A stretch of 64,000 bases of DNA, from positions 465,829-529,828 of the forward strand of contig BDIU01000099.1 in the NCBI GenBank assembly GCA_002118135.1. Reading direction: 5' to 3'. The notes under the pieces were generated by a model. The model was given only the letters and a program-made list of their open reading frames with translations. It did no database searches and was not told the DNA's origin. How positions within the stretch are numbered: the first letter of the stretch is position 1; each line of letters opens with the position of its first letter. Both the position numbers and the translations under genes were made by a program. Positions 2,739 to 63,940 of this stretch are shown here, one piece after another. The DNA comes from Trebouxia sp. TZW2008. Lineage: Eukaryota; Chlorophyta; Trebouxiophyceae; Trebouxiales; Trebouxiaceae.

Positions 2739-5700
2739 ATGTTGCGCTACTGCGCGAAAAAGCTTGATCTGAGCTCGATCAGAGATGCATCGCGAAATGC
2801 GCAGGCCGCAGCATTATGCGCGACAACGAGCTGGCACAGTGCGCAGCAACAACGACACTTTGCACCGGGCCCATCCTTCGCTTACGAACCAGACTACAGC
2901 AAGAAGCACGACATCGTAAGAAAGTCGGGTGTCGATGTACTGCACGATGCTCTTTATAACAAGGTGCGCGAGCTGGGTTAGCCTTGGATTGGCCTGTCAC
3001 TCGTCAGACCGACGCACACTTGCAATCGTACTGCAAGCTGGTCTGATTCATCTCAGGGAACAGGCTTTCCTTTACCAGAAAGAGAACGACTGGGTGTCAG
3101 AGGCTTGCTGCCACCTGGAACACTTTCAATGGAAAGACAGGTAATGCCTTTGCAACCCAAATGAAGCATCCTGGACACACACCCACGCCCCATGGCTGGA
3201 CCACCTGTTATGGTTACAGGCCGCGCGTGTGCTTGATGACTACAAGTATGGAAGGGACTTCATCGACCCCTCACATGTCAAGGACGGCGGCGTGACTAAG
3301 GATCACACCAGACAATGGAAAGTGTTACAAGAGCTGCAGGTACCACCAACCAAGTCAGCGAATTCAATTGAGCCGCTTTGGTTCAGCATGAGCCATGTCT
3401 ATAATGTTGCTATGATTTTTTGGCTTGAAGTCAATCTTTGTGTCTGCAGTGTTGCAGTGTTGCTCAAAGAACCATATGTTGCCTGACAGCAAACTCGTCT
3501 TTTGTTTGATGTAGGATCGCAATGAAACCTTGTTCTACAAAGTCTTGCTTGACAACTTCACAGAAATGGCGCCCATTGTGTACACTCCAACAGTAGGCTG
3601 GGCCTGCCTCAATTATCACAAGCTATACAGACGGCCTAGAGGCATGTTCTTCAGCGCCATGGACAAAGATGAAATGGTAAGCATGCAGACCTTGCTTGCC
3701 GTGTGCTACAGCGTCACCTTACATTGTAGCCGGCATCTACAGTTTGTGTCATTTCTTTGCAGCAAGTACATAACTGTGTAGCGCACAGATTGGTACCAGA
3801 CAGCTGAGGGGCAGCTAGCAGTGCTGCTCTGCATCAGTGTTGTCAGCATTTCTGTATGCATTACTTGAAGGATATGACACAAGCTGTGGTTCAATTGCAG
3901 TCTGCCATGATATGGAACTGGCCAGCACAAGAAGTTGACGCCATTGTTGTAACAGATGGCAGCCGCATTCTGGGTTTGGGTGATCTCGGTCTCAACGGCT
4001 TGGGCATCTCAATAGGTCAGCACCTCATCTGCTAGCTTTGCAGCGTGACATGCACATAACAACCGCTGTGCAAATTTGCATGATTGTGCACGCTCTGCAT
4101 TCTTTGTCACTCTGGCATTTGCTTGCTATGTATATTACTTGCTTGCATCTTAGCCATCAACCCTGTCGCCACATGCTTACCTTGAATCAACTGGCGGTTT
4201 TTCTGGTGTCCAAAGACATGTCTAGCACAAAACAATATCATTGAGTTCTGCTGTCCGCAGAAATGATTGTTGGCATGCCTGCAGGCAAGTTGGACCTGTA
4301 TTGTGCAGCAGCTGGCTTTCACCCAGCAAGGGTGCTGCCTTGTGTGATTGATGTGGGTACAGACAATGAAGCTCTGAGAAATGATCCCATGTACATGGGC
4401 CTGCAACACCCAAGGCTGCAAGGAGATGCATACTTTGAGGTGGGTATCCTCTCGTCCCCTCTGCGTGCGCATTCCTTCAATAGCTTAGTCCCATAAGCCT
4501 TGTGTGATTGATATGGGCACAGACAACCAAGCGCTGAGACTGCATACTTTGAGGTGAATCTCCTGTTGTCCCCTCTGTGTGGGCAAACATCCAATAGCTT
4601 TGTCTCATAAGGGTAGCACGTTCATTGCTGCCTTGTATCGTTGATGTGGGCACAGACAATGAAGCGCTGAGGAAAGACCCCATGTACATGGGCCTACAGC
4701 CCCCAAGACTGCAAGGAGATGCATGCTTTGAGGTGAATTCCCTCCGCTCGTCTGTGCGCGCATTCATTCAATAGCTTTGTCTCAAAAGGGCAAGATGGCA
4801 ACTGCTGCCTCGTGTGATTGATGTGGGCACAGACAATGAAGCGCTGCGAGATGACCCCGTGTACATACCTCAAAGTACGCATCCCCTTGCAGTCTTGGGT
4901 GTTGCAAGCCCATGTACATGGGGTCATGGGCCTGCAACACTCAAGACTGCAGGGGGATGCATGCTTTGAGGTGAATTTCTTCCATCCCCTCTGTGTGGGC
5001 AAGCAGTCAATAGCTTTGTCTCATGAGGATAAGACGCCCATTGCTGCCTTGTATGATTGCTGTGGGCACAGAGAATGAAGCGCTGAAGTGCATGGGAACG
5101 GCCCCATGTAGATGGGCCTGGCTGCAAGGCTGCAGGGAGATGCGTATTTTGAGGTGGGTTTCCCCCCCTCCATATCATGACCCCTCTGCCCCCATGCCTT
5201 TGGTCCCCACGCCATCTTTGCCTCACCTGCAATGCATCAGTGACCTCATCTCAACCGCCTGCTGCGCGTAAACTGATGTTGGATCTCAAACAATATACGG
5301 AGCAGGAAAATTTGCATCACAACTGGTACCAGGTCTTGTTGATCAGCATCAGGTGATACATCAGATGAAAACACTCAATCAGAGCATCCAGGTAGTCAAA
5401 GCTTGCAGAACAGCAACCAGCAGCCTTGTGTTGTGGGACCAACAGCTGTGTCACTGTCAGCAGCTCAAAACAACAGCGCCAAGCAACTGCAGTTGCAAGT
5501 TGTTGATCAGATACATCATCACCTCGGTGATAAGCTTTTGTCTTGCTGCAGATTCTGGATGAGTTTGTGGAAGCTGTCATGAGCCGATGGCCCAAGACTG
5601 TGCTGCAGTTCGAGGATTTCCAGCTGCAGTATGCGCATCCCCTGCTGCAGCGTTACAAAGACCAGCATCTGGTCTTCAATGATGACATTCAGGTACTCCA

Positions 5701-8700
5701 AGGCAGTCATGTTCTCCAACGCTCACTTGCACAGTTGCCAGGGCAATGTTTTTGGAAGGCAATGCCTAGATGTCTGTATCTGCACTGCATGCCAGCCACT
5801 CAGACCAGACTGATGCTGCACACCTACAGTCAGTACTGCGCAGTGGAATGGTAACAACGGTCAGCGTGGTCTTTTTGAGTTTGAATGGGACAGCAGCAAC
5901 GGTCATAGCAGAGGTTATGGGCTCTGAAGCTGCAGGGCAAGCCAGTACATCCACATGTGCAGCATCGTCACCGTTGAACAAAAGTCAGACCCTGGCAGGG
6001 AACTGCAGCAGTAGCATCGACGGGGTTGTATGGGGCTCTGAAGGTTCGTACATCAAGGTTCCTGTTTGCGCGGATGCTGCATTGTTGGCAGGGGATAGCA
6101 GCAATGGCCTAGACAGAGATGCTTTGTGCAGCTCCTCTGTTGCCAATTTACATGCAAAATTACATGCAAGCCAAGTCTAGTAACGTTTGCAGGGGACAGC
6201 AGCAACAGCATTGGCTGGGGTGTACGGTGCTCTCAAGGTGCAGGGCAAACCAGCCCACAGTCTGACTCAGCAACGTATTGTAGTGCTGGGGGCTGGCAGT
6301 GCTGGCATGGGCGTCAGCACCATGATGGCCCAGGGCATGGTCAAACACGTAAGCAATCGTCTCACTCCAACTCTTCATGGAAAAGGCACAATGCAGCACA
6401 CAGTCATGGCACCAGGCTTGCGGCCAGCGGTGGTCATTAAACTTGTCAGAAGGCTCATCTTGAAAGCCAGAACTCCCTGCGTAGTCAGCATTCACTTGCT
6501 CCATCACCAGCGCAGAATGCATAGGTGGGTGTTGATAATGGATGCATGTCAGTAATAGACAAAGTCAGCAGCTTTCCTGACAATCTGGTCAGCACTGTTG
6601 GCAGTTGCACAGCTAGTTTGGCAGAGCGACACAGCGGGGCGCTCTTCCCTTCAATTTGCCATCACACCTGCTGGCGCTGTTTTACGAACTATGGGTCCTC
6701 ATTAGTGCTTGCTTTTTTGTGTCACAGGGACTGGACTTTGACGACGCTGCAAAGCAGTTCTGGATTCTGGACAAAAACGGATTGATCACCCGGAAGCGGC
6801 CGGATGATCAATTAACAGATGTGACTCGGCCCTTTGCTGCCATCGGTGACGACGATGTTGAGGGTGAGGACCTCTTGAGCGTTGTTAAGAGGGTAAGTTG
6901 TTGAGTCGTGATCTGCACCATGCACCAAAGTGTATTGCAGCTGTTCACATGATCCATGTCTGACCTTTCATCTGAGTTGCAACACGATGTAAGTAGTTCA
7001 AAGCCTTCATTTGGGAGACAAGTCCGCTAGCATTTAACACATTGTTCAAGAATCATTTATACATGGAAGGGCATGCAGTACAGCAGGTGACACCGCAGCC
7101 TGCCCAAAGCTTGCTACAGTTGTTCGTTTGGAAGGGCATGCGCAGCATTCTATTAAAGCTGTCAGGGTGATGATGCTGCAAAGCATTGTTTGGCATTGCA
7201 CACACAAATCTTTCACCGATGACCCACCTGTCAACTTTGGTGGCATAATGCTGTTCTGTGAAATGTTTGTGGTGTAGCTTGAGCTCAGCATCTTGACAGG
7301 GCTGTCTGAGGCTGGCATTCTCCACAACGTCATTTCATTGTTTTAAATTTTTATTTGATGATGTTTGGCAATAGTGTCTCCTTGGGCAATTTGGTGGCAC
7401 TATGCACATGAAGCAAATGATGCGGTGTGCAGGTGAAGCCCAGCATCTTGATAGGGCTGTCAGGGGCAGGCCCTTTGTTCACCCCTGATGTCCTGACAGC
7501 CATGGGACAGTGCAATGAGAGACCCATCATCTTCCCCATGTCCAACCCAACCTACAGATCTGAGTGCACCTCAGACGATGCTCAAAAGTACACTGGTGAG
7601 CTTTTGTCAACACAGCATACTTTGGCTGCTGAGCTTAGCAGTACACTAGTGAGCTCAAGTAGTTGCAACAAGAGACACATCATCTTTCCCACGTCCAGCC
7701 CAAAACACAGGTGTGAATGCACCTCAGACGATGCTCAAAGGTACACTGGTGAGCTTCAGCACAGGAACAGGAGTGTAGCAGTCTGCATGCTTACAGATTT
7801 GAAAGCATTTCAGACAATGTTCACACACACACTGGTCACTTTTGATCACAACAGCAGATTTCACCTGTGAGCGTTGCAAGTGCAATGAGAGGGCATGATC
7901 TTCTGCTTAGCCCTATCCAGCCTACAGATGTGAGTGCACCTCAGACGATGCTCCAAAGTACACTGGTGAGCTTTCATTGAGAAAACAGACTTTGGCTGTT
8001 CAGCTTGGCCAGCGCATTGAGAGGCTCATCAGCTTTGCCATGTCCAACCCAACCTACAGATCTGAATGCTCAGATGACGCTCAGAAGTACACTGGTATGC
8101 ATTCTATTGTTTGGTCGTGCATACGTGGGAACAAACAGGACAGCGACTTGCACTCGGCACTTCAGACTTGATGATCATGCAAAATGACTATGCATCTTGA
8201 ACTTGTCTGCCACTCCCTGCCCCTGCCCCTGCCCCTGCCCCTGCCCCTGCTCTGCCCCTCGCCGCCCCCAAGTTGCATTGCTAAGACAGTGATAGTGGCT
8301 GTCTGTTTCTCTGTGATGCTGCTTGTGAGCAGAATGCTGAGCTGACACCACATCTTGAGGCAGACTGCGCTTTTTTGGGGCAAGCTGTGAATCAACTGAG
8401 CTCTGAGGTCAGCGGGGCCTGCACATGCATCCCTTGACTTTCAAGCTTAGCTGTTTCCAGCTTGACTAGAGAAGCACCCATTTGCCACACGAGCAGTGCA
8501 TGGCTTCATTGCTTTTGTGAGAATTTAAGGATTTGACGCCTCGCCATGCACTGCTTGCTGAGATGCAGCGGCATGCAAAAGCATTTGCTACAGAGCATAA
8601 TGGCAATGCTACGTTTGTCTACTCACAGCATGGCAGGCTTACTTTTCAAGCACCCAAAATCTTTTAGTTCAATGCATGCCAAGTCACATTTCAGGCATGC

Positions 8701-63747: not shown

Positions 63748-63824
63748 CTATGACAGCAAGCACAAAGTTCAGCCACACATCTCGGTGTACTCTGCACTCA
63801 AGTGATGCTTCAAGCGTTCTGTCG

Positions 63825-63940
63825 GTTGAGTTTGTGCTGCAGCCACTAAGTTTGCTTTGCCAGCCACATAGCCTCCCGCCGTTACTATGGTGCCCGCTGG
63901 GTTCTTGATCAGGCTGCCCATACACAAGTCAGCCCCAACC
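63825..63940 (-). repeat. Upstream partial copy of lyase exon 63747-63564
   Basis: Reads VGADLCMGSLIKNPAGTIVT then AGGYVAGKANLVAAAQ with an ATAG acceptor, nearly the same as the true exon, but the 3' half with the donor is missing. Spacing is about 191 bases. Confidence 0.92.

Follow-up and report, generated by a model that had tools for sequence, protein, structure and literature searches.

It is an open question how introns come to be longer where transposons play no part, and it is raised by a 64,000-nucleotide stretch of DNA from the green alga Trebouxia sp. TZW2008 (contig BDIU01000099.1, positions 465,829 to 529,828; hereafter the window), where introns contain tandem partial copies of the neighboring exon. 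These copies, termed echoes here, are arranged in series, termed ladders, and are visible at many ages in one genome. The initial annotation had proposed that the introns lengthen by repeated duplication of segments straddling exon-intron junctions, each step adding a spare splice site. The analysis covered 244.8 kb of an assembly of 68.5 Mb in 527 contigs: the window (GC approximately 49%), five 10-kb blocks chosen arbitrarily and 29 segments near genes for kinases, CCT and HSP70. Random tandem duplication combined with purifying selection very probably accounts for both the ladders and their geometry.

Tandem partial exon copies at splice junctions

Self-comparison of the 244.8 kb identified 196 direct and 4 inverted local repeats, defined as self-alignments within 2 kb scoring at least 45 bits and counted as alignments, not as independent events. 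Beyond 2 kb only 4 direct and 2 inverted repeats were found. An 11-mer spectrum, which gives extra weight to long, young ladders, contained 23-28 direct matches per offset at offsets of 150-190 bp versus 0.6-1.1 inverted ones. The copies lie adjacent to one another in direct orientation and are local tandem duplications. They form 81 ladder clusters; in 36 of these the copy number is estimated at three or more. The pattern is spread across the sampled contigs and is not peculiar to the window, a restriction that the initial annotation had named as one that would refute its proposal: repeats covered 20, 16, 12, 11 and 25% of the five arbitrary blocks and 16% of the window, with cluster densities of 0.38 and 0.44 per kb, respectively. 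That this density is unusually high is our judgement from one genome and not a measured contrast with another alga.

Geometry was assessed at verified exons, which were located by Pfam matches (CCT, HSP70) or by a homologous protein (malic enzyme), with splice sites taken from a simple gene finder. This was trained on Pfam-matched exons from the same genome, arrived at a donor consensus resembling AG/GTRAG and an acceptor consensus of TGCAG/G (slash at the junction), and gave models across the window, where all exons other than those of malic enzyme are ab initio predictions. The verified set comprised 108 exons, 11 from malic enzyme and 97 from CCT and HSP70 genes; the latter were drawn from 117 places, of which 4 were excluded as themselves echoes, each lying alongside a longer copy of its own stretch, and 16 lay outside the fetched DNA. 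All 35 junction-crossing copies, distributed over 23 junctions, were on the side predicted by tandem duplication, with 15 acceptor copies upstream and 20 donor copies downstream of the intact exon, which bears out the regular arrangement originally described. Three alignments that did not reach the junction (contig C87, offset 342, ending 15 bp within the exon; C165, offset 493, stopping 1 bp before the junction; malic enzyme, offset 470) were likewise on the expected side. Echoes accompanied 15 of the 97 CCT and HSP70 exons, with 14 alignments of a 3' part downstream, 12 of a 5' part upstream, none with the sides reversed and one inside an exon. The exonic part of the copies ranged from 16 to 119 bp. 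No whole-exon copy was found among the 97 exons (six ambiguous window clusters, described below, stand apart), and no exon-internal duplication was detected in them by a method that may miss offsets below about 50 bp.

At 41822-42227 of the window and at 64079-64539 of contig C150 the alignment is longer than its offset, which indicates that the whole unit was duplicated and not the exon part alone, in agreement with the proposed repeated duplication of junction-straddling segments. For the HSP70 gene on C150, where the spacers at first looked unrelated to the intron, an origin of the spacers purely from exon sequence was also considered. It was rejected, as the alignment is better read as a degraded continuation of the exon followed by the end of the intron, although the spacer preceding the outermost copy can scarcely be aligned. 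Unsystematic inspection by eye of Pfam place tables for kinase (134 places), HSP70 (54) and kinesin (146) recovered some ten partial hidden Markov model (HMM) copies on the expected side. These include HSP70 on C150 (HMM positions 131-205, preceded upstream by copies of 131-168 and 132-167), a kinase on C73 (118-204 with an upstream copy of 118-168) and a kinesin on C157 (downstream copy of 263-290); some, among them kinesins on C193 and C79, were ambiguous. The same unsystematic inspection recognized no partial copies in the tables for CCT (63 places) and AMP-binding (22).

The malic enzyme gene, on the forward strand, illustrates the arrangement. Its exons were mapped by tblastn with an 82%-identical protein (P0001). 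Among the best 120 of 7809 protein matches the top two were 82 and 78% identical, and the best named matches among those listed were from Myrmecia bisecta (61%) and an organism labelled Astpho2 (60%), which we take to be Asterochloris. The intact exon at 4285-4439, placed by tblastn and the gene model, is followed at 4498-5156 by a donor-side ladder in which its 3' part recurs at least four times as partial direct copies, and all four alignable donor copies keep GT. One ladder copy is split by a further copy of this 3' part, in inverted orientation, at 4866-4928; inverted repeats are few in the sample. The intact exon at 7433-7595 is followed by a second donor-side ladder at 7664-8108, with copies of the exon's 3' part at 7664-7756, 7851-7967 and 8004-8108. 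Copies of the 5' part lie upstream of exons 6193-6348 and 9887-10042: an acceptor-side echo of the former at 5879-5945 (offset 306 bp, AG lost) and an acceptor-side ladder at 9588-9930 that extends into the latter.

Placement and decay of the copies

Under the explanation favored here, the genome would undergo frequent short tandem duplication, with offsets mostly of 60-220 bp and apparently random placement. Selection would remove duplications inside exons, and units lying in introns or over one junction would be tolerated because an intact exon, flanked by both its splice sites, still remains. Where a unit crosses a junction, part of the exon would be left behind as a copy, either upstream with a spare acceptor or downstream with a spare donor. 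The copies would decay neutrally, constraint being confined to the true exon, and duplicated stretches would duplicate again to give ladders, intron lengthening being a by-product. The correct protein would require splicing to pair the innermost acceptor and donor around the intact exon, as exon definition would. As molecular cause we favor end-joining repair of staggered breaks, which may be followed by slippage or unequal exchange between copies.

The strongest competitor is a duplication process linked to transcription or splicing that favors exon-intron boundaries. To compare the two, units of the observed sizes were placed anywhere over the verified genes. With ladders collapsed, random placement put a fraction of 0.383 at junctions, 0.369 within introns only and 0.200 inside exons; with present lengths the fractions were 0.352, 0.422 and 0.181. 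Selection would explain why the exonic share has no observed counterpart among the 97 verified exons. In simulated decay, junction copies remained detectable 1.2-1.3 times longer, so that 50-58% of visible ladders would be expected at junctions under random placement. Two-copy ladders agree with this, 12 of 18 being at junctions (P 0.12-0.31; three ambiguous window clusters dropped). Since chance alone yields junction and intron-only units about equally, the earlier view that the duplication is junction-spanning by nature was not upheld. Moreover, intron-only ladders occur in both the two-copy and the multi-copy class, and the exonic part of the copies is variable, not fixed. In the window, 17 of 28 clusters share a predicted exon that extends beyond the ladder, 6 have predicted exons wholly inside the ladder and were classed as ambiguous, and 5 touch no predicted exon; 17 of the 22 classifiable clusters are therefore at a junction. 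As a correction to the initial annotation, some ladders touch no exon.

Several observations count against random placement, or against other parts of the favored explanation. In verified introns 12 of 15 ladders touch a junction and 3 do not (P 0.02-0.05), pooled with the window the figure is 29 of 37 (P 0.0005-0.004), and among multi-copy ladders it rises to 17 of 19 (P 0.0004-0.003; three dropped). Several gene segments lack any ladder, and repeats cover 7.6% of predicted intergenic sequence (6.7 kb) versus 15.0% of predicted introns. Primary offsets exceed 219 bp in 20 of 112 cases, and part of the 11-mer signal lies below 60 bp. The greater length of laddered introns, reported below, is partly expected because long introns are larger targets. 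Finally, break repair is drawn from the literature, its breakpoint evidence here being one perfect 101-bp duplication at 32796-32997. In that duplication the alignment length equals the offset, so there is no extra homology at the ends. This would suit the end-joining of staggered breaks described for mammalian cells (PMC8355091), although a single case falls far short of establishing it. As to the multi-copy excess, it may come from the merging of copies into wide clusters, which reach an exon more easily and are kept recognizable by it, so that the excess is no proof of junction-seeking. On balance, we regard a junction-directed process as improbable, though the best placed of the alternatives.

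With respect to size, 92 of 112 primary offsets fell within 60-219 bp (median 155), and the 11-mer spectrum peaked at 150-190, fell off beyond 220 and rose to a second bump at 300-350. A lower limit near 60 bp, read from the BLAST offsets, was rejected because BLAST self-searches suppress matches near the diagonal; the 11-mer spectrum, used in its place, contains some signal below that value. The proximity of the unit size to the nucleosome repeat is offered as a suggestion only. Ladders were present in 13 of 65 verified introns, with a median length of 784 bp for laddered introns versus 314.5 bp for the others (Mann-Whitney P 3e-6), and ladder spans accounted for 18.6% of the sequence of all verified introns and for 48% of that of the laddered ones. 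The claim that nearly every swollen intron shows this pattern goes further than these figures allow. In simulations, most intron-only copies had become invisible by 0.16-0.20 changes per site, and most junction copies by 0.20-0.25; older duplications should therefore escape notice, and tandem duplication as a whole could have contributed far more. That the copies clump into multi-copy ladders suggests that existing ones help new duplications to arise. A more far-reaching possibility, which we hold only tentatively and consider rather doubtful, is that introns here consist mostly of local tandem duplications at differing stages of decay, with growth, fading past about 0.2 changes per site and re-duplication, initiated by chromatin-sized breaks or nicks and tolerated through exon definition.

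The differences between echo and exon were structured by codon position. Over 36 alignments they amounted to 0.117, 0.105 and 0.229 per site at positions 1, 2 and 3 (102, 91 and 197 differences at 869, 870 and 860 sites; chi-square P 2e-12, a value that is optimistic because several alignments have an exon in common). Intronic parts of echoes differed by 0.209 over 1668 aligned bp, about twice 0.11. This is as expected if all echo sites are free to change, by about 0.11 per site, and in the exon third positions alone are. Gap positions in the exonic part were not divisible by three in 10 of the 36 alignments. The echoes decay neutrally, without coding constraint on the extra copy. Splice dinucleotides were kept at 26 of 35 echo sites (10 of 15 acceptors, 16 of 20 donors), in keeping with the suggestion that each step adds a spare site. 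This is close to the approximately 0.79 expected under neutral decay by our own arithmetic, so that spare sites look neither kept nor purged. For malic enzyme exon 4285-4439 the echo donors score 5.1-5.3 versus 5.1 for the true donor, and choosing the intact exon would then imply pairing across the exon.

Such scores, which many echo sites share with the true site, would also suit tandem exon duplication for alternative splicing, with echoes serving as functional alternative exon ends. However, the copies are partial, the gap counts noted above break the frame, codon positions 1 and 2 are unprotected in the echo, 9 of 35 sites have been lost and the mean site score is 3.1 for echoes versus 6.1 for true sites. 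We consider this reading very unlikely. Still less probable is the gain or enlargement of introns by mobile elements, such as Introners or miniature inverted-repeat transposable elements (MITEs), or by dispersed repeats. Two small dispersed families are present, of approximately 140-180 bp and 70 bp, and two local pairs (C354, offset 744; C308, offset 613) apparently belong to these families and are not tandem units. Of 129 cross-segment matches, however, 47 touch a ladder copy, all of which read as HSP70 paralogue exons or as the two families; the other ladders match their own locus only, within the 244.8 kb. Ladders share little with dispersed repeats, in keeping with the statement of the initial annotation that transposons explain little of the intron length. 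An assembly artefact or collapsed haplotypes, to which the perfect 101-bp duplication and some 95% copies might lend themselves, can be set aside as the least credible explanation, since most copies differ by 10-30%, the pattern is distributed over many contigs, and assembly error would not produce differences that follow codon position.

Further ladders and repeats in the window

Pfam searches with nine predicted window proteins (malic enzyme excluded) supported VTT, PQQ/quinoprotein, GST, mannosyltransferase, MlaE (TGD1-like), DUF1995, acyltransferase, Met_gamma_lyase and LCM assignments. Of the gene names first proposed, malic enzyme, quinoprotein, GST, TGD1-like, acyltransferase and lyase were supported, the SirB1-like (Transglut_core2) match scored under the Pfam cut-off, and Nudix and mS26 had no Pfam match among the nine proteins scanned. 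Exon positions in this section are ab initio; the gene assignments rest on Pfam where a supported name is given.

A two-copy ladder at 13515-13752 (offset 167) touches no predicted exon. On the forward strand, a ladder at 14176-14845, which contains an array of three 67-bp units, lies beside predicted exons 14625-14700 and 14760-14894, and a three-copy ladder at 15434-15733 lies at predicted exon 15342-15480. The PQQ/quinoprotein gene, on the reverse strand, has a two-copy ladder at 17594-17784 (predicted exon 17699-17820) and a multi-copy ladder of the ambiguous class at 18992-19745, around predicted exon 19456-19591. The remaining forward-strand cases are two adjoining multi-copy ladders in the GST gene at 27272-28780 (predicted exons 27728-27878 and 28673-28867), a pair of two-copy ladders at 29062-29865 (predicted exons 29231-29343 and 29526-29672), a multi-copy ladder in the MlaE/TGD1-like gene at 41686-42236, ladders flanking the predicted acyltransferase exon 50338-50579 on both sides (50000-50779), and a two-copy ladder at 56679-56937 (offset 141; predicted exon 56825-57081) in the Transglut_core2-like region. 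Predicted exon 41987-42299 of the MlaE/TGD1-like gene itself appears to include an echo. The Met_gamma_lyase gene, on the reverse strand, has ladders at 60908-62642, with three exon-like copies of the ambiguous class within 61222-61654, and a multi-copy ladder with 201- and 192-bp periods at 62920-64000 that is cut by the window end. No ladder was found in 42237-49999, which holds the DUF1995 gene model.

The perfect duplication at 32796-32997 lies in the mannosyltransferase gene model and touches no predicted exon. Within the same gene model, two exon-sized pieces 1555 bp apart in 34053-35691 are alike, possibly a larger internal duplication. The larger dispersed family (69-80% identity, approximately) occurs in the window at 1291-1428, 21084-21224, 39857-39971, 40418-40582 (inverted) and 62177-62320, also matches contigs C354, C431, C44, C349 and C64, and looks like a short non-autonomous element. 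The 70-bp family was found at 13043-13109 of the window and on C308, C348, C88 and C64. Outside the window, an array with offsets of about 120 bp and 80-95% identity (L003, C434:29348-30057) was called as a single exon beside a kinase gene and is possibly a repetitive protein. Echoes also mislead gene finders: ours called them as exons in the C150 HSP70 and malic enzyme genes.

Relation to known systems

If introns here were indeed mostly decayed duplications, tolerance of the decoy ladders would show that splicing proceeds by exon definition. The decoy sites offer a natural experiment on the spliceosome's choice among near-identical pairs. In addition, every junction-crossing event brings a clock of its own, with one side constrained and the other free; from a single genome, such clocks would let one measure how fast tandem duplications arise, how large they are and where they fall. 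Among titles and abstract openings found in the open-licence literature there was no description of exon-echo ladders. Their density in one genome, the lengthening rather than founding of introns and the codon-position signature appear to be new.

Single cases of junction-spanning duplication are already published. Tandem genomic duplication is a recognized route of intron gain (PMC3443670, PMC2891723), and in the potato RdRp gene, as reported in PMC4974935, a single acceptor-spanning tandem duplication made a new intron. That case concerns one gene, a new intron and a recruited donor, whereas in the alga the copies lie within introns of intact genes on many contigs. The model of Rogers and of Hellsten, as presented in PMC4974935 and PMC3443670, likewise has tandem duplication supplying splice sites, but there an AGGT-containing exonic duplication splits an exon, whereas the algal unit extends over a junction that already exists. 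The creation of introns by AGGT duplication within exons was accordingly rejected as a general cause, given the 35 alignments that cross existing junctions. Internal duplications are described as common in eukaryotic genes (Gao and Lynch 2009, as cited in PMC4974935 and PMC3443670), a likeness to the present case. In Drosophila, regional tandem duplication is likewise a source of intron change (PMC2891723); of the 31 novel positions reported there for 12 genomes, five are probable cases, all in open reading frames, compared with 81 clusters in 245 kb of the alga. Mutually exclusive exons arise by whole-exon duplication and are complete copies, of which there were none for the 97 verified exons. 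Introners resemble the ladders in causing genome-scale intron change, algae included, but they place similar introns at many loci (PMC9860276), whereas each ladder resembles its own locus within the DNA compared. Alike in mutation class are the short tandem duplications attributed to CST-Pol alpha fill-in at breaks, a general class formed via end-joining of breaks with overhangs (PMC8355091); these were shown in human and mouse cells and are described as under 100 bp.

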